Positions 6,754 through 19,408 of a DNA stretch of 37,225 nt are shown here, one piece after another. The position numbers and the translations under genes are program-made. Below the pieces are notes generated by a model. The model was not told where the DNA came from and did not search any database. It saw only the letters and a list, made by a program, of their open reading frames with translations. Origin of the DNA: a virus; the IMG/VR virus record IMGVR_UViG_3300046364_000025, positions 1 through 37,225 of that record, one strand, 5' to 3'. Positions within the stretch are counted from its first letter, which is position 1. Each line of letters begins with the position of its first letter.

Positions 6754-8403
6754 ATGTCAACTCTTGGACTTTTTAACACAACTAACTGGGCTCCTAATCA
6801 ACTTGAGAAGAGTTTTAACTCTCGCTTGCTGACTAAATATCCAGGTACTCCTGCTATGCTTACAGCGCTGTCTGCTAAGTTTAAATCTCAAAACATTTCT
6901 AGCCATCGTCACCACTGGGCTGGTAAGTCTATGGTATTCAGCCGAGGGGCTATTACAGCACCTGTTGCAGCTGCAGCTACTGGCGCTCAAATGCAGATTA
7001 GTGTAGATGACTCAACTACTTTTGTTCCAGGTGCTGTAGTTTTAGTTAATAGCACTGATGAGCAAATGCGAGTTATGTCTATCGCAGGACCTAACTCTAT
7101 CATCGTTCGTCGCGCATTTGGTATTAGTCCAGGCTTGCCTATTGCAGCTGGCGCAATGATTTGGCAGATTGGTAACGCTTACGAAGAAGGCAGCTTGCGT
7201 CCGTTAGCTAAGAGCTACAGCTATGAAGAGTGGGATAATATTACCCAAATTTTCCGTAACTCTTGGGCATTGACTGGAACTGTGCACGCTGAAAATCCAA
7301 TGACTGGGGCTAAAGTAGCTGTTACTAGCAAAGCAGAAGCCGCCAGCTTCCACGCGATTGAAAAAGAAATGGCTATGATTTGGGGCGAGCGTCACTCTAG
7401 CTTTGAAGGCGGCCAGCCATTACGTAAGATGGACGGTATCATTAGCCAGATTAAGCAACATGCTCCTAGCAACATTCGTTACGCAGCCAGCACAACTACT
7501 TTCGAGCAGTTAGGTAATATGGTTAATGGTGTATTCGATGTGTCCACTGACATGACGATGGAAAATGACCGTTTGCTGCTAGTAGGTAACAAAGCGTACT
7601 CAGTTCTTAACGCATTGGGTCGTGAGTATGGTATCTTGCAGACTAACATGCAGACTACTAAGTTTGGTATGCAGTTCTCTGAGTTCCAGACAGACGTTGG
7701 TAACTTTAAAATCTTGAAGCATCCATTGTTTAACGTGAACCCTGAGTGGTCTAGCATGGCTTTGGTTGTTGACCCTAGCTCGCTGGAACTTAATTATCTA
7801 CGCCGCACACGGCACCACACATTTAACGCCGATGTTAATGACGAAGGTAACTACGATGGCGATACTGGCCAAGATGCGCATGGTGGTGATTTCCTTACGG
7901 AGTTTACACTTGCAAACATGGTGCCAGAAGCTAATGCTGTTATCTACGGTTTGTGTGAAGCTGCTAAGAAAATTATGGTTGCTGCTCCTGTCACCTTCTC
8001 TGCTTGTTTGTCTATTAGCAATCCTTGCGACTTGGGCGCTGTGGATGGGGGTGCTGTAGTTATCTTGGCTGTGCAAGGTTATGTACCAAGCGTTAACGTT
8101 AGTATCGCTAGCCCAACGGGTACTTTGTTGCCAGTGACTATCGATGCTAACGGTAATGGTACTGTGCAATACACAATGCCTGTTACTCCTGGTACTTACG
8201 CATTCGCTATTGTACCTGGCGCTAACAACGTAACTTGGACTAGCCCAGTTGTCGTTGCTTGTGTTAAAGATTGCTTGGCAGTTAAAGTAGAGTCTAACTC
8301 TGCTGAAGTTGACCCAATGCAAGGTGTTACCTCAGCAACTTTGATGGAATCTCTTAATAGCCCAACTGACATTATCACTGGCGTAGGCTCCGTTCAAAGC
8401 TAA
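6754..8403 (+). CDS. Major capsid protein with C-terminal Ig-like domain
   Basis: The product (549 aa) forms the icosahedral shell. Its first ~400 residues resemble the DUF5309/SU10-like HK97-fold capsid group, with the EEGSLRPLAKSYSYEEWDN and TQIFRNSWALTGT stretches near residues 147-180 followed by a charged helix (EKEMAMIWGERHS). From about residue 412 a beta-rich, Cys-flanked Ig-like domain follows (CLSISNPCDLG to VVACVKDC), with the PGTYAFAIVP pattern typical of such folds; it is probably exposed on the capsid surface. AAGG precedes the start. A strong terminator follows directly, which would favour high production from a separate short transcript. Confidence 0.85.
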   Translation: MSTLGLFNTTNWAPNQLEKSFNSRLLTKYPGTPAMLTALSAKFKSQNISSHRHHWAGKSMVFSRGAITAPVAAAATGAQMQISVDDSTTFVPGAVVLVNSTDEQMRVMSIAGPNSIIVRRAFGISPGLPIAAGAMIWQIGNAYEEGSLRPLAKSYSYEEWDNITQIFRNSWALTGTVHAENPMTGAKVAVTSKAEAASFHAIEKEMAMIWGERHSSFEGGQPLRKMDGIISQIKQHAPSNIRYAASTTTFEQLGNMVNGVFDVSTDMTMENDRLLLVGNKAYSVLNALGREYGILQTNMQTTKFGMQFSEFQTDVGNFKILKHPLFNVNPEWSSMALVVDPSSLELNYLRRTRHHTFNADVNDEGNYDGDTGQDAHGGDFLTEFTLANMVPEANAVIYGLCEAAKKIMVAAPVTFSACLSISNPCDLGAVDGGAVVILAVQGYVPSVNVSIASPTGTLLPVTIDANGNGTVQYTMPVTPGTYAFAIVPGANNVTWTSPVVVACVKDCLAVKVESNSAEVDPMQGVTSATLMESLNSPTDIITGVGSVQS

Positions 8404-11063: not shown

Positions 11064-11461
11064 TGTTGCAAGCTATTCTGACTCAAACTCCGGATAGTGT
11101 AGAGGGTTTTGACTCTTTACTACCTATCCACATGCAGCTTAATAAGCCAGAGAGAGCTGCTTCTGCTTTAAGCAAGTTTGCAATATCTGTAGCTCCTAAC
11201 AACTTCTTTGGGCCAGATGGTAAGGCGCCAACTAATCGTGTCTACGGGTTTAACGCTAATGGAGTAGCTACTATTGGCCCTAAGTTTGTTAGCTATATAT
11301 CTAGCCAGCCACTAGGAATGCCACTGTTTTATGTCAATGGTGTTATAACAGGGAATCCCTTCCTGGTGTCTCCTAACGCGACAGAAGTACAATACGTAGG
11401 AACTCAAATAACTTACGATGATTTTCTATTAGATATTAAGGAGCCTTATGGCAGGATGTAA
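11063..11461 (+). CDS. Hypothetical tail-region protein, 132 aa
   Basis: I do not recognise this family. It starts in a TAATG overlap with the nozzle candidate and its last 14 bases overlap the next gene, so it is tightly coupled on both sides. It appears to be a small globular protein without signal, membrane or coiled-coil segments. The GFDSLLPIHMQ stretch near residue 15 and a Gly/Pro-rich middle are the only distinctive parts. A tail assembly or nozzle accessory role is inferred from coupling alone. Confidence 0.65.
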   Translation: MLQAILTQTPDSVEGFDSLLPIHMQLNKPERAASALSKFAISVAPNNFFGPDGKAPTNRVYGFNANGVATIGPKFVSYISSQPLGMPLFYVNGVITGNPFLVSPNATEVQYVGTQITYDDFLLDIKEPYGRM

Positions 11462-12659
11462 TAGCTGTGGTGCTAGCCAATTGCACTCATGCGGATGTAA
11501 ACCTAAATTAGATATCTGGACACGGCCGTTAGCTATGGGTAGAGAGCCAGAAGCTAGTTGTGTGCCTCAAAGTAACAGTGATTGCGATTCGTGCAACGAC
11601 CCAGTTAATCCTACTTGTGCCTTTAACTGGTCGATTACTCCACTGCAAGCTATCAGTAATGGTGTAGTTACTTTTAATGGAACTAACTTTCCAGCTAATG
11701 GTGTTTTTCAAGTTAGAGTAGTTGGACCACAAGCTGATTACTACTGGACAGTAACTAGCGATAATGCTGGAGTAGTGTTAGCTACAATGCATATTGGCTT
11801 GTTGCCTGGTAGTTATCAGTTTACTCCAATTGTTCCTGATTGTGTTGGGCGCCCTAAGCGAAATGCTATTACGGTAGTAGCTTCTGGCCCTATTGATACT
11901 AGTGGGCCTTGTAGCTGCTTAGGTATGGTAACAATCACGCCTACGATTCTTAACCCAACCATCTACAGTGGAACTCAAATTCCAATTGTACTAGTGGTTA
12001 AGAATAGCAATTCTTGCCCTGCAACGGATATTATCCTAGCTCCTTTAGTGTTGCCTACTGGCTTGACTAGCTCTATTCCTATTCAGCTGACTGGGATTAC
12101 GATAGCTCCTAACAGTAGCCAGACCTTTACGTATTTAGTTAATGCTAACAATGCAAGTGCTGCAGACATTCAAGCTGGAGTTACAGTTCCTGCTAATATT
12201 GCTACCTATAAATGTGGAGGGGTTACGTTCTTTGCTGGAGGCGGTAGTAGCTACGGTACGATTAAATCTACGGTTACTGGTAATTGCGCAATTGCAATCT
12301 CTCAATTCTCAGTGGCGCCATTAACAGTGGCTAATGGTGGCTCAGTTACATACACATTAAAGATTCAAAATACTGGTACTAACCCTATCGTTAATATGAA
12401 TCTAGCTGCAGTACCAATAGCTAGTGGCGTTGTAACTTTTACTCCTGCTGCCAACTTAACAGCTGCTGGAATTAACTTAGCCGCTGGGGCAGAACATACT
12501 GTAACTTTAACTGGAACAGTAACTGCTTCTCCATTAGCTATAGGTGGACAACACGCACACCAAGTGTTGATAAATGCAGGTGCTGTAACTGGTACTTGCA
12601 ACTTTGGGCAAATTAGTAATATGCTACCCGCTGCTACTACTTTGATTATTAACGGATAG
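11448..12659 (+). CDS. Cys-rich, multi-domain Ig-like virion protein
   Basis: A 403-aa protein probably on the virion surface. It begins with a Cys-dense segment (CNSCGASQLHSCGC, residues 4-17, then CDSC near residue 46). A first Ig-like domain spans about residues 60-145 with a PGSYQFTPIVP pattern close to that in the capsid's C-terminal domain. It is followed by two domains of the DUF11/CARDB kind found in bacterial adhesins (VANGGSVTYTLKIQNTG near 290-308; NLAAGAEHTVTLTGTV near 340-357). AGGAG seven bases upstream supports the ATG at 11448. Likely a head fibre or host-surface-binding decoration; the attachment site is unknown. Confidence 0.65.
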   Translation: MAGCNSCGASQLHSCGCKPKLDIWTRPLAMGREPEASCVPQSNSDCDSCNDPVNPTCAFNWSITPLQAISNGVVTFNGTNFPANGVFQVRVVGPQADYYWTVTSDNAGVVLATMHIGLLPGSYQFTPIVPDCVGRPKRNAITVVASGPIDTSGPCSCLGMVTITPTILNPTIYSGTQIPIVLVVKNSNSCPATDIILAPLVLPTGLTSSIPIQLTGITIAPNSSQTFTYLVNANNASAADIQAGVTVPANIATYKCGGVTFFAGGGSSYGTIKSTVTGNCAIAISQFSVAPLTVANGGSVTYTLKIQNTGTNPIVNMNLAAVPIASGVVTFTPAANLTAAGINLAAGAEHTVTLTGTVTASPLAIGGQHAHQVLINAGAVTGTCNFGQISNMLPAATTLIING

Positions 12660-12916: not shown

Positions 12917-13600
12917 ATGTTCGGGCAAAAAGTTAGCTGCGGCTGCCCCCCTTCTGGTACTGTCTGGGCGCCACAGGAAGAAATTCATCTACAAGGACAA
13001 GATTGCGCAGGCAACCTAGCAGATTTTGTTGGGAAGCCTACGCAAATTGTACAGACAGTACCTAAACCTGGAGCGGTGCAAGACGTTAGATTGTGTGGGA
13101 CTGTTGCATGCCAGCAATTGTTAGTTGCCGTAGTTCCTATCTGGGTTGATTTTGGAGAATCAGGTATTCAGGAAGGTTCTAGATATTGGTACCAAGATAG
13201 CTGCACTTTAGCTATAACAAGTATTAATCGCACCAGCTTTAATGAAGCTACTGGCTATAGTGACTATCCGCTAGGAGAAATATACACTATAGCAAATCAC
13301 GTACAGTGGTATTATGTAAAGCCAGTAAGTAATATTAATACCCCTTATCGTGCTACTAAACTAGCTCATATACAAGTCGATGCTGATGTTAGCGTATTTG
13401 ACATATTTGGCCATGAGTTAGTTTATGAACTTTACATAGAGCCATTAGTGGGTTCAGTGTGTTCTGTGGAGATTAATGCAGGTAGTATGCCGTTAACGAT
13501 AGGCACTGTTTATAAATTCACAGACATTGATGCAAACTCTGTATTTATCACGGATTCTGGTGCCCCAGCTAATTATAATGTGTGGTGTGTAGCTGGGTAG
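12917..13600 (+). CDS. Hypothetical Cys-rich virion protein, 227 aa
   Basis: I do not recognise this family. The N-terminus has a CGCPP motif (residues 8-12) and further Cys at about 30, 59 and 65. The remainder is beta-rich and acidic, with no membrane or signal segment. It lies between the Ig-like protein and the fibre-like genes and uses the start five bases after the preceding stop. A baseplate, fibre-anchor or surface role is likely from position; function is unknown. Confidence 0.65.
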   Translation: MFGQKVSCGCPPSGTVWAPQEEIHLQGQDCAGNLADFVGKPTQIVQTVPKPGAVQDVRLCGTVACQQLLVAVVPIWVDFGESGIQEGSRYWYQDSCTLAITSINRTSFNEATGYSDYPLGEIYTIANHVQWYYVKPVSNINTPYRATKLAHIQVDADVSVFDIFGHELVYELYIEPLVGSVCSVEINAGSMPLTIGTVYKFTDIDANSVFITDSGAPANYNVWCVAG

Positions 13601-14751: not shown

Positions 14752-15312
14752 ATGGCACTTGTTAATTTTTTCAAGGAGACAGTACTACCTGGTACTCCTG
14801 CAGCTAACTCTATTTATTATGTAACAGATGCTGACCCTAACTATTTGCAGTTGTATGTAACTAGCACTGGCGGTGTAGCACGACGCCTTCCTACAGTCGC
14901 AGATATTCAAGCTTTAATCAATACTGCAATAGCTGGCGTAGCAGCTGGAACTGTAGTTGCTGATATTACTGCACGTAACGCACAAGCTGGGCTGACAGTA
15001 GGTAAGCAAACATTAGTGCTAGATGCTACTGGTGACGGCACTGTGCTTAGCGGCGCAGCTACTTATGTTGTACGTAGTACTGGCCCAGTAGTTTGGGCTA
15101 AAATCTCAGAAGCTGAGAGCTTGGACGTTATTCAGACTTGGGCTGCACTAACTGGTAAGCCAACAAGTTCTGTTGCAGCTATTGATGCTGCGGTAACTGC
15201 AAGTCACACTCATGCTAATAAGACACAATTAGATTTGATTGGGGAAACTGGGGGCTTAATTACTTATAACGGACAGCCTGTTAACCTTAATTGGTCAACT
15301 ACTACCTGGTAG
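14752..15312 (+). CDS. Tail-fibre-like protein, 186 aa
   Basis: An N-terminal module (NFFKETVLPGTPAANSIYYV) is followed by a helical linker (residues 45-66) and a middle domain. Near residues 130-165 comes the WAALTGKPT / SHTHANKTQLDLI pattern that recurs in phage tail fibre and baseplate-fibre proteins. It ends with a short aromatic strand (NWSTTTW). AAGG lies before the ATG. It probably forms a link or shaft segment between the virion and the larger fibre protein encoded next. Confidence 0.65.
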   Translation: MALVNFFKETVLPGTPAANSIYYVTDADPNYLQLYVTSTGGVARRLPTVADIQALINTAIAGVAAGTVVADITARNAQAGLTVGKQTLVLDATGDGTVLSGAATYVVRSTGPVVWAKISEAESLDVIQTWAALTGKPTSSVAAIDAAVTASHTHANKTQLDLIGETGGLITYNGQPVNLNWSTTTW

Positions 15313-16489: not shown

Positions 16490-17563
16490 ATGAGCTGTTG
16501 CCCTCCTAGCGCAGATTGCATCCAATGCCCTATTATTGTTAGTTGCATTCCTAACTTAATACTGCCTCCTGGACAACTACAATTCTGCCCAGATGCTTGC
16601 AAGTTCTACTACGATTGCGCAGGAGTTAAAACTTGCTTGAATCCAACGTATGGTCTTGGCTTACGTATGACTGAGAATTGCATATTGCAAGTAGGCCTAG
16701 CTCCTGGCCGTCCGTTAGTGTTTGATGACGCTGGCAATATTGATATTGATTGTGCTACGCTAATCGCGTGTTGCAATCTTGTTAACCAAAGTCAGCTTAA
16801 TACTGTAGTAACTAATATTTACAACACATTCCAAGCTGCCATTACTAATATTCAGCAGCCCAAGCAATGTGATGGAGTAACTACCTTAACTAGTGCTAAT
16901 GCCGTTTACCAAGTTGGTAGCTTGAAAAAGTCAACTGCAACTGGAGATGCGAACTTAGCTTGTGGGGATAGAGTTGTACTATGGGGCGACCTAATGAAAT
17001 GTATTGATGGAATTTTAACGCCATTAGTACGCGGGGACATTATTGTTACGCAAGCTACTTGCGAGCCTATAGTAGTGCCAGTAGGTAGCCCACCCGTTGG
17101 CTCTCCGCCAGTAGGTAGCCCTCCGGTAGGTTCTCCTCCTGTTGGTAGCCCACCAGTAGGTGGAGGTTGTTGTGACCTAAGTAATAGTGGCCCTAAAAAC
17201 TACATAGATAATTATACAAATAATGTGTATACTGGCGGAAGTGCTCCTGTCTGGGCATTTAGTTATGCTTGTGCTCTTAATGCATATATACCATTTGCCA
17301 TTGCTGTAGTTGCAGGTAGTTTACCTCCAGGTTTATCGGTTAATGGAGTTGACCCAAATTCTGATGGAAGCAATAACTACTATTTCCAAGGCTTTAGTGG
17401 AAGCTTGGTCGTGCCAGCTGTCACTACTACTTATAACTTTACAGTTAAAGTTGCACCTTTCGATATAAACAGTGCTTGCTATTCGTTAGCTGACATTGCT
17501 TATACAGTTAATGTAACTACTACAGCGCCTCCAGTTGGAGTTCCTCCTGGCGAAGGTGGTTAG
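16490..17563 (+). CDS. Cys-rich protein with five VGSPP repeats and an Ig-like (He_PIG type) C-terminus
   Basis: A 357-aa protein in three parts. Residues 1-190 are Cys-rich (CCPPSADCIQCPIIVSC at the start). Residues 198-222 are five perfect tandem VGSPP units followed by VGGG, an extended linker. Residues 225-347 form a beta domain with VVAGSLPPGLSVNG, the hallmark stretch of putative Ig (He_PIG) domains, and end in a Pro/Gly tail (PPVGVPPGEGG). It probably projects from the virion as a fibre or decoration. It lies between the holin candidate and a 2-oxoglutarate dioxygenase gene; its Ser-Pro-Pro repeats are plausible substrates of that enzyme. Confidence 0.6.
   Translation: MSCCPPSADCIQCPIIVSCIPNLILPPGQLQFCPDACKFYYDCAGVKTCLNPTYGLGLRMTENCILQVGLAPGRPLVFDDAGNIDIDCATLIACCNLVNQSQLNTVVTNIYNTFQAAITNIQQPKQCDGVTTLTSANAVYQVGSLKKSTATGDANLACGDRVVLWGDLMKCIDGILTPLVRGDIIVTQATCEPIVVPVGSPPVGSPPVGSPPVGSPPVGSPPVGGGCCDLSNSGPKNYIDNYTNNVYTGGSAPVWAFSYACALNAYIPFAIAVVAGSLPPGLSVNGVDPNSDGSNNYYFQGFSGSLVVPAVTTTYNFTVKVAPFDINSACYSLADIAYTVNVTTTAPPVGVPPGEGG
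17081..17155 (+). repeat. Five tandem 15-base units encoding VGSPP
   Basis: Five in-frame 15-base units each encode Val-Gly-Ser-Pro-Pro. The units differ at most synonymous positions (Val as GTA or GTT, Ser as AGC or TCT, Pro as CCA, CCC, CCG and CCT) while the peptide is identical. That pattern argues for selection on the protein repeat, not a recent DNA duplication. Confidence 0.95.
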
Positions 17564-17588
17564 TAGTCAATTTTAATAGGAAACACTG

Positions 17589-18284
17589 ATGTATAAATTT
17601 AATTCTGAATACTCTAAGCTAGCTTCCCAGTTTCCTGCCACAGACTTGCAAGACGCTAAGCCATCCCCAGTGGTACTAATTACAAATGCTGTGCCCCAGC
17701 AAGTCACCCGAGAAACTTATGCTAACGTATTGAAAGCACGCGGCGGCACTGGCAACTTCCAACGTGCTACTGTATATGGCCCTGATGGTATAAGTTCTAT
17801 CTCTGCAGAGCACTATCGTAAAACAGACTTATTTAACGCTAAGTTTGTATACAACAATGTTAGTGCTTTAGCCAAATTAACTAAGCAAGTTGAGGCTTCG
17901 GCCTTAGCTACTTGGGGAGTAGAAATTGAAGCTATATCTCCTTGGTGGGTAGCAGGCTACGGCGTTGGTGATAAGTTTGATTCGCACTGCGATGGGGCTA
18001 TTAGGCTAACAGACGGCAGCTATAAAGCGGTTGAAAATCGTGTAGTATCTGCGTTACTTTATATTAATACTAAAGATGACAGCTTGTTAGGCTGGGGTTA
18101 TAGTGGGGGTGCGTTGAGTTTTCCTGGAATTACTGATGACTATGGCGTACCGCTAACTATTAACCCAAAGGAAGGCGATTTAGTTATCTTTCCTTCTAAC
18201 TGGAATTATTGCCACGGTGTTAGCGAAGTTACAGCAGGTTACCGTGTTTGCTTAACTAACTTTTTTCGCTTGAAAGCTGGCTAG
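17589..18284 (+). CDS. 2-oxoglutarate/Fe(II) dioxygenase, prolyl-4-hydroxylase-like
   Basis: This enzyme would hydroxylate a substrate, probably a prolyl residue, using O2, Fe(II) and 2-oxoglutarate. The 231-aa protein carries the full iron triad: H133 and D135 in YGVGDKFDSHCDG, and H209 in FPSNWNYCHGV, with R219 placed to bind 2-oxoglutarate. GDLVIFPS before the distal His and a YGxGxxFxxHxD lead-in are typical of the prolyl-4-hydroxylase branch. It lies 26 bases after a gene with Ser-Pro-Pro repeats and three bases before the endolysin. Candidate targets are that protein, or a host protein such as EF-Tu, which some bacterial relatives modify. A sugar, base or other target is not excluded. 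Confidence 0.8.
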   Translation: MYKFNSEYSKLASQFPATDLQDAKPSPVVLITNAVPQQVTRETYANVLKARGGTGNFQRATVYGPDGISSISAEHYRKTDLFNAKFVYNNVSALAKLTKQVEASALATWGVEIEAISPWWVAGYGVGDKFDSHCDGAIRLTDGSYKAVENRVVSALLYINTKDDSLLGWGYSGGALSFPGITDDYGVPLTINPKEGDLVIFPSNWNYCHGVSEVTAGYRVCLTNFFRLKAG

Positions 18285-18286
18285 TA

Positions 18287-18748
18287 ATGGCAGGCACTAT
18301 TGCTAAAGTTGGAGCTGGAGTAACAGTAGTGGTTAGCTTAACCCTGGCTTTATTGCTTCCGCCTCCTAAAGAATCTAGTAAGACTGTAGAGTACCAACAA
18401 CGCTGTGCTTTAGCCCTGGCATTCCATACAACGTATGTTCCAATAGCTGCAAAGCAAGCTGGACTACCTAGTATGTTTTTTGTTAATGGTGAAGCTGAGC
18501 GTCCTAAGTGGGTAGCTTTACAGTACGCTAAACAAGGAATTGGTATAGCTAATAGTTTGCATACGCAGAAGCTGGCTATGGATAAGCACTTGTTCATTGA
18601 GGGAGTTTATGCAGAACGAACTTCGCAACATACGTTTTCTGGAATTATCTGGGAAGCTATCGGCCCTAGTTTTGGAGTCAATGCTCGCTGGGGTGGAAGA
18701 TTTACTAAACAAGATGGCAACCATTATGAGTGTGTGCCAAAGGAGTAA
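18287..18748 (+). CDS. Endolysin, M15-type peptidase with N-terminal signal anchor
   Basis: The protein (153 aa) would cut peptidoglycan stem peptides. Zinc ligands and catalytic residues of the M15 (VanY/L-alanoyl-D-glutamate peptidase) group are visible: H92 and D99 in SLHTQKLAMD, and H146 in DGNHYE, with the usual RWGGRF just before. An uncharged, Gly/Ala/Val-rich segment at residues 8-24 with no cleavage site fits a signal-anchor-release endolysin, exported by Sec and activated when the membrane collapses. It starts three bases after the dioxygenase stop and leads into the spanin genes. Confidence 0.75.
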   Translation: MAGTIAKVGAGVTVVVSLTLALLLPPPKESSKTVEYQQRCALALAFHTTYVPIAAKQAGLPSMFFVNGEAERPKWVALQYAKQGIGIANSLHTQKLAMDKHLFIEGVYAERTSQHTFSGIIWEAIGPSFGVNARWGGRFTKQDGNHYECVPKE

Positions 18749-18753
18749 CTAAG

Positions 18754-19155
18754 ATGATTGAACCGCCTAAGGAATTGCCTACTGCTACAGTAGCTCCAGT
18801 CCTTAATATTAAAACTTCTACTAGCTATAGTTTGCTAGCTTGGGTACTAGGTGTAGCAGTAGTAATTGCTGGATTGCTTTACCTTTGGGACTTAGCAGGC
18901 GACCAGCGTGAGGAAGAGGTAGTAGCTAGATACGAAGCGTTAGCAATAACTGACGCAACTGAAAAGCTAAACAATGGAGCCAAAGCTGAAGTAGGATTTA
19001 CAGAAGCTAAGGTTGAAATTCAAACTCGTTATGTGACGAAAAACAAGGAAATTATTAAATATGTGGAAGCTAAAAACAACAGTGCTGCTACTGAGTGTAA
19101 GCTTACTGATGAGTTTATCCGCGTGTACAACTCGTCAGGTAGCGGTAGTGAATGA
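18754..19155 (+). CDS. Rz: Inner-membrane spanin (Rz-like)
   Basis: The protein spans the inner membrane with one segment at about residues 26-47 (LLAWVLGVAVVIAGLLYLW) and extends a charged, helical periplasmic part, as Rz-type spanins do to fuse inner and outer membranes at the last lysis step. The frame is open from a GTG at 18730, but the ATG at 18754 has AAGGAG at a good distance and is preferred (133 aa). The outer-membrane partner begins inside this gene in another frame, the classical arrangement. Confidence 0.75.
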   Translation: MIEPPKELPTATVAPVLNIKTSTSYSLLAWVLGVAVVIAGLLYLWDLAGDQREEEVVARYEALAITDATEKLNNGAKAEVGFTEAKVEIQTRYVTKNKEIIKYVEAKNNSAATECKLTDEFIRVYNSSGSGSE

Positions 19156-19408
19156 TATAAAGGTTAGCAAGCAATTACAAACTCCTTGTGGTAAGTTCCC
19201 TAAGCTAAATGCGCAGGCAGGCGAACCGCTAGAGAAGGCTGTGCTAGTTAATCGTAACGAATCCGAAAGTGTATTAGCAGACTGCGATGCTAAACACCAA
19301 GGAGTACTGCAGGCGGCAGGCTTAAAGATGCCTAGTAAAGATAAACTATCTCGCTGGGAAATCTTTAAAGTTAAGCTAGGTAAACCAACTCAAAAACTTA
19401 AGGAATAA
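19061..19408 (+). CDS. Rz1: Outer-membrane spanin lipoprotein (Rz1-like)
   Basis: A signal peptide with a lipobox (LSAC, Cys at residue 22) marks this as an outer-membrane lipoprotein. It starts 95 bases before the end of the inner spanin in another frame and runs past it, an overlapping Rz/Rz1 arrangement. AAGGA lies eleven bases before the ATG. The mature part (~94 aa) is charged, somewhat long and less Pro-rich than classical Rz1. It is identified by topology and overlap, not by sequence identity. Confidence 0.75.
   Translation: MWKLKTTVLLLSVSLLMSLSACTTRQVAVVNDIKVSKQLQTPCGKFPKLNAQAGEPLEKAVLVNRNESESVLADCDAKHQGVLQAAGLKMPSKDKLSRWEIFKVKLGKPTQKLKE

Follow-up and report, generated by a model that had tools for sequence, protein, structure and literature searches.

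A prolyl-hydroxylase-like oxygenase gene paired with a VGSPP-array gene in a podovirus, and the recurrence of this pairing in other phages

We analyzed a viral DNA of 37,225 bases (IMG/VR virus record IMGVR_UViG_3300046364_000025; the whole stretch is called the window below), in which a gene for a prolyl-hydroxylase-like oxygenase lies just downstream of a gene whose product contains an exact VGSPP array. Our main finding is that genes of these two kinds are found together in several unrelated phages, and this leads us to suggest that there are phages which chemically modify the proline-rich stalks of their own tails. For the window, we favor the reading, at a probability of roughly 0.6, that the enzyme hydroxylates the VGSPP prolines of its neighbor, presumably a protein of the tail or another surface protein, and thereby stiffens a stalk. 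The wider proposal is that phages have repeatedly acquired the strategy of hydroxylating prolines in VG[STA]P(P) tail stalks, which would give a first concrete substrate for part of the phage 2OG-Fe(II) oxygenases and provide virions with hydroxyproline-rich, extensin-like segments; we would put this at even odds.

The window encodes a terminase, a portal, an SU10-type capsid protein, a polymerase and a primase. Among named phages, it is closest to the podoviruses PaP2/119X, Polaromonas phage Tiera, EBPR podovirus 3 and Aeromonas phage P5, with terminase or capsid identities of about 31-35%; we regard it as a podovirus distantly related to PaP2/119X. IMG/VR scans returned no close relative of the two proteins of the pair or of the capsid protein, and a close relative of the window was reached through the terminase only (L002, an 8.5-kb fragment that ends short of the array and oxygenase region). 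The two genes are placed between a holin-like ORF and an endolysin/lysis group (Table 1). They are separated by 25 bp, and each start is preceded by a Shine-Dalgarno sequence of the AAGGA or AGGAAA kind.

Three other proteins of the window deserve mention. A 186-aa phrog_7946 protein (14752-15312; 3.8e-56) is also found in Microcystis myoviruses and in many Pseudomonas temperate phages, and is widely exchanged. The capsid protein (6754-8403) has a C-terminus about 140 residues longer than those of its Tiera and EBPR podovirus 3 relatives, and this extra part gives a weak Filamin/Ig-like match. Finally, a 403-aa protein (11448-12659) with a weak DUF7507/DUF11-like match has a Cys-rich N-terminus, MAGCNSCGASQLHSCGC, that resembles the starts of the array protein and of the product of 12917-13600.

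Table 1. Coordinates of the gene pair, its motifs and its neighbors in the window
Feature	Position	Strand	Remarks
Holin-like ORF, 78 aa	16250..16486	+	Hydrophobic stretch judged by eye; Pfam match sub-threshold; upstream neighbor
Array gene, 357-aa Cys-rich protein (21 Cys), proposed substrate	16490..17563	+	No family match
VGSPP x5, exact, residues 198-222	17081..17155	+	DNA of each unit different
Prolyl-hydroxylase-like 2OG-Fe(II) oxygenase, 231 aa	17589..18284	+	PF13640
Fe ligands H133-x-D135	17985..17993	+	Intact
Fe ligand H209 and 2OG-binding R219 (H plus 10)	18213..18245	+	Intact
Endolysin, M15 peptidase-like	18287..18748	+	Weak matches: PF13539 0.028, phrog_1768 lysis 0.0011; downstream neighbor
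Rz/Rz1-like spanin pair, overlapping genes (starts 18730/19061)	18730..19408	+	LysC match, weak

The array protein is made of an N-terminal segment, the VGSPP array and a C-terminal segment. Its tandem span reaches 28 residues; when the protein was shuffled 2000 times, the span never exceeded 10. A preliminary description of this DNA had noted five perfect repeats kept by means of synonymous codons, and this is what we find: the units are all distinct from one another in DNA, at a synonymous divergence (pS) of 0.72, with zero amino acid differences. Moreover, their serine codons alternate between AGC and TCT, which are not interconvertible by a single synonymous base change, so that the array is not the product of fresh slippage. 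Saturated synonymous differences without residue change, together with this alternation, point to an old array held at the protein level. The arrays of L111, L112 and the VGTPP gene of L110 (see below) behave likewise, with pS values of 0.75-0.82, saturated synonymous sites and no residue changes. In a plain linker one would expect drift away from such exactness, but not in an enzyme substrate or a strict polyproline structure. No homologue of the array protein was detected in Pfam, PHROGs, the PDB or phages; the array scores weakly on Pfam Extensin_1 (0.0066), and a single-sequence AlphaFold model was uninformative (pLDDT 35). An Ig-like C-terminal segment, proposed by eye, was dropped as it had no supporting Pfam match.

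The oxygenase matches Pfam PF13640 with an E-value of 2.7e-13 and 51.1 bits (curated cut-off 27), and H133, D135, H209 and R219 are invariant in a four-member alignment (A4), in line with the earlier description of a dioxygenase with intact HxD...H and Arg residues directly after the VGSPP gene. The residue ten positions after the distal His is Arg in the window enzyme and in L015, L110 and L251, and Lys in L111/L112; the window oxygenase lacks the Lys that characterizes collagen/plant-type prolyl 4-hydroxylases (P4H) at this position. Used alone as a query, its sequence gave PiuC as a weak best match (E 0.0018) and no other. A profile of four enzymes compared with solved structures matched prolyl 3-hydroxylase 1 (2.1e-11) and P4H (5e-7), and PKHD enzymes too.

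The fold of the oxygenase was predicted with AlphaFold from a three-sequence alignment (pLDDT 67, pTM 0.72). The top structural matches of this model all have the double-stranded beta-helix fold, and the best 50 VIA-align rows are, 50 out of 50, prolyl or lysyl hydroxylases or PiuC. Pseudomonas PPHD, in a structure in complex with EF-Tu, comes first (Z 16.2), with the HIF hydroxylase PHD2 at about 16, Chlorella-virus vCPH at 15.5 and an algal P4H bound to (Ser-Pro)5 at 14.7; lysyl hydroxylases and PiuC are close behind the prolyl hydroxylases. The window enzyme is thus predicted to be prolyl-hydroxylase-like in structure, a shared fold being no proof of function.

IMG/VR was then searched by DNA pattern for arrays only, the enzyme not being used in the search. 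The pattern VG[ST]PP x2 yielded 16 stretches in 15 records, four of which encode a PF13640 protein (L015 (G055), L014 (G054), L022 (G061) and L020/L021 (G060)), and in all four the array is coding. A prediction that PF13640 would be found in new (PVG[ST])x3 records was noted before the next scan; this gave 34 new stretches, and the prediction was borne out once in 32 new records (L251), while a clear array gene, in L245, came without the enzyme. Extra records collected with a broad pattern contained PF13640 in one case out of 36 (L213). We then applied a fixed rule, namely at least three VG[STAE]P(P) units on the longest ORF, with the window excluded; L213 is not an array by this rule. Among the 152 pattern-only records, PF13640 is present in 5 of the 11 with an array and in 3 of the 141 without a coding array (Fisher p = 3.7e-5), a sample with few array records, many contigs that are fragments, and about six known lineages. 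Two alternative array rules gave p = 1e-4 and 2e-4. An earlier, stricter rule (at least four S/T units), applied before the last 36 records joined, gave 4/8 versus 3/108 (p = 3e-4, or 2.6e-3 with a homologous pair collapsed).

Six array records under the fixed rule are devoid of PF13640. Several of them consist of short, fragmentary or doubtful ORFs; the clearest case is the L245 contig (45.5 kb), where VGSP x5 lies in an ORF that no other frame competes with. Some pattern matches were rejected, two as antisense or wrong-frame, their coding strand reading GVPTG or GEPTG (L024, L010), and four as spurious-looking (L016, L017, L019, L023). Arrays from bacterial genomes, mostly GC-rich or antisense frames, were excluded, and the phage oxygenase profile matched no ORF in the bacterial 8-kb array loci.

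Relatives of the window itself were gathered through the capsid protein. None of these 53 records (49 contigs, some of them fragments, and four named phages) contains PF13640, and no comparable array is present in the loci fetched from them, which argues that the window lineage gained both. As an argument against a functional link between enzyme and array, it had been proposed that close relatives might frequently have one gene but not the other. The capsid-found records carry neither. The pairing also comes back in phages outside the window's lineage, which supports the link well beyond what the window alone could show.

In these other phages, the arrays often reside in tail proteins or near their genes. 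L015 has VGSPP2-VGEPP3 at the C-terminus of a protein whose gene adjoins that of a minor tail protein; L014/L112 has VGTPP x5 in a protein of 1055 residues; L022/L111 has VGTPP x7 in a protein of 1194 residues with a tail protein match; and L110, from a 177-kb phage, has three VGTP(P) array genes among its tail-fiber genes. In L251 (631-1998), PASTA domains are separated by three (VGSP)n blocks, with the prolyl-hydroxylase-like gene downstream. L213 has a shorter VGAPP array in a gene that ends in PVGAPPVGAPPVGG, within the same tail module as G060. The oxygenase gene starts 25 bp after the array gene in the window, 437 bp in L015, 614 bp in L251, 594 bp in L110 and 338 bp in L213, and these five close pairs are always on the same strand. 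In L111/L112, about 9 kb separate the oxygenase gene, which directly follows the major capsid gene, from the array gene further downstream. As to L110 (G060:82000-101000), its three tail-region genes end in VGTP/VGTPP arrays of up to 15 units, and ORFs judged by eye to be GNAT-like and fatty-acid-desaturase-like lie just downstream of the oxygenase.

The comparison of L111:11547-15131 with L112:12431-15598 indicates what such arrays may be for. Residues 1-394 of the two proteins are 62% identical, the array begins at 404, and the sequences beyond it are unrelated, the C-terminal tip of L111 being a beta-lactamase-like domain (beta-lactamase/lysin-like). No relative of the L112 tail anchor was found among named phages. 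The alignment reads as a clean exchange of tips across the repeat stalk and, as the similarity ends at the array, the latter resembles a stalk that connects a conserved tail anchor to a tip that can be swapped.

Whether the pairings are independent was judged from the enzymes. The array-linked oxygenases share 23-37% identity over longer alignments, except for the L111/L112 pair (61%). A tree including cyanophage members needs four label changes, at least two of which are forced by supported branches, its long branches making finer statements unsafe. On this tree, the array-linked enzymes do not appear as one clade, which argues for a recurrent pairing, with some kinship among the paired records (L111 and L112 are related, and L110 and L213 share a tail module).

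These observations lead us to propose that 17589-18284 encodes a phage peptidyl-prolyl hydroxylase whose substrate would be the VGSPP array of the neighboring protein; this array would itself form an extended stalk of polyproline-II type, with a folded part at either end. The enzyme would be made in the infected cell and would hydroxylate array prolines before assembly, with Fe(II), O2 and 2-oxoglutarate. As 4-hydroxyproline favors the extended polyproline-II form, the modified stalk would be stiffer, and perhaps protected from proteases. The same solution may have arisen or been acquired in several phage lineages with VG[STA]P(P) arrays in tail proteins. Glycosylation of the array, which the preliminary description had also considered, is without support here because the window ORFs that we scanned include no glycosyltransferase. 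Several points speak against our reading. The window array protein has neither a homologue nor a direct sign of being in the virion, and sits in the lysis region; its enzyme, by sequence alone, is matched best by PiuC; six array records do without PF13640; the two genes of L111/L112 are far apart; and many cyanophage members of the enzyme family have no array close by.

The main rival is that the enzyme serves host takeover by hydroxylating EF-Tu, a ribosomal protein or another protein of the host, the array being an ordinary polyproline linker and both genes having entered a shared insertion hotspot near the lysis genes. The role generally proposed for phage 2OG oxygenases is one in host metabolism (PMC9602691). 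The top structural match is, moreover, a hydroxylase in complex with EF-Tu, and the interval between holin-like ORF and endolysin is a plausible cargo site. Array-less 2OG oxygenases are common in cyanophages, many of whose PF13640 members have no proline array nearby, so that the family has other uses; two control-set oxygenase records (G088 and G159) likewise have no VGxPP array in the stretches examined. One of these control phages (L220; G088:12000-30910) encodes, on the same contig, a protein of about 1900 residues with imperfect PxQGPP repeats, perhaps a different array type. A host target with coincidental linkage accounts for the enzyme family; however, it does not predict that the enzyme is enriched in independently gathered array phages, that five records have the two genes 25-614 bp apart, or that arrays stay exact at the protein level. 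We consider it unlikely, if still credible.

Alternatively, the enzyme might modify the array or another virion protein elsewhere or otherwise, by prolyl-3-hydroxylation or on Lys, Asn or Asp in folded domains, the array serving only for recruitment. A profile of the Arg-type members is matched better by PKHD enzymes and prolyl 3-hydroxylase 1 than by P4H, and lysyl hydroxylases also match the oxygenase model. On the other hand, the array is the common feature of partner proteins that are otherwise unrelated, and the L111/L112 enzymes, with their H...K plus 10 pattern, clearly match collagen-type P4H (1.1e-11); when both are added to the profile, the top matches to solved structures are all prolyl 4-hydroxylases. 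This alternative seems to us distinctly unlikely. As for chance and shared ancestry, whereby a few phages with large tail loci would happen to carry both genes, the small number of lineages (only about six) and the kinship noted above lend it some substance, but the association under three array rules (p from 4e-5 to 2e-4), the 0/53 count in kin, the non-monophyletic enzymes and the tight same-strand spacing make it very improbable.

Phage 2OG-Fe(II) oxygenases are widespread and are mostly attributed to effects on the metabolism of the host; a 2026 annotation paper names EGLN3-like folds as the commonest of the human matches in phages (PMC12774648). The recurrent link to arrays, both physical and statistical, points to a virion substrate that can be tested. 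If our reading is true, bacteriophages too have hydroxyproline stalks of the sort known from collagen and plant extensins; these would depend on O2 and 2-oxoglutarate in the infected cell, and enzyme plus array would form a compact natural hydroxylation module.

Among known systems, the preliminary description had invoked the algal and plant P4H that act on extensin-type Ser-Pro and Pro-Pro repeats. The likeness to Cr-P4H-1 (PDB 3gze) holds for the fold (Z 14.7), the HxD...H motif and the S-P/P-P-rich repeat protein. The residue that binds 2-oxoglutarate is Lys in algal, plant and collagen P4H, and Arg in PHD-type enzymes, including the PPHD/PHD2 group. The window enzyme has Arg and a weak sequence match, so that the analogy is looser than stated; furthermore, no glycosyltransferase was seen, and the setting is a phage, not a secretory pathway. 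The best structural matches, Pseudomonas PPHD (4iw3) and PHD2, share about 21% identity with it, and their targets, EF-Tu or HIF, are globular or a short degron rather than tandem arrays. Chlorella virus PBCV-1 vCPH and Mimivirus L230 are also virus-encoded and match in structure, but these collagen-type hydroxylases belong to viruses of eukaryotes and their partner would be collagen-like or proline-rich, whereas here a bacteriophage VGSPP array is concerned. Cyanophage 2OG-Fe(II) oxygenases (PHROG 61; PF13640) belong to the same Pfam family and often lie near tail-fiber genes, but those tested, unlike the window enzyme, lack a proline array within 12-20 kb. Collagen-like (Gly-X-Y) tail fibers of phages likewise provide a repetitive, proline-rich stalk in a tail protein; the VG[ST]PP/VG[ST]P units differ in having no Gly at every third residue and in being paired with a hydroxylase. 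Literature searches on the repeat strings, and on prolyl hydroxylase with phage tail fibers, found no link to proline arrays of virion proteins. The chemistry and the fold are therefore of a known kind, and it is their pairing with a proline array in phages that appears to be new.
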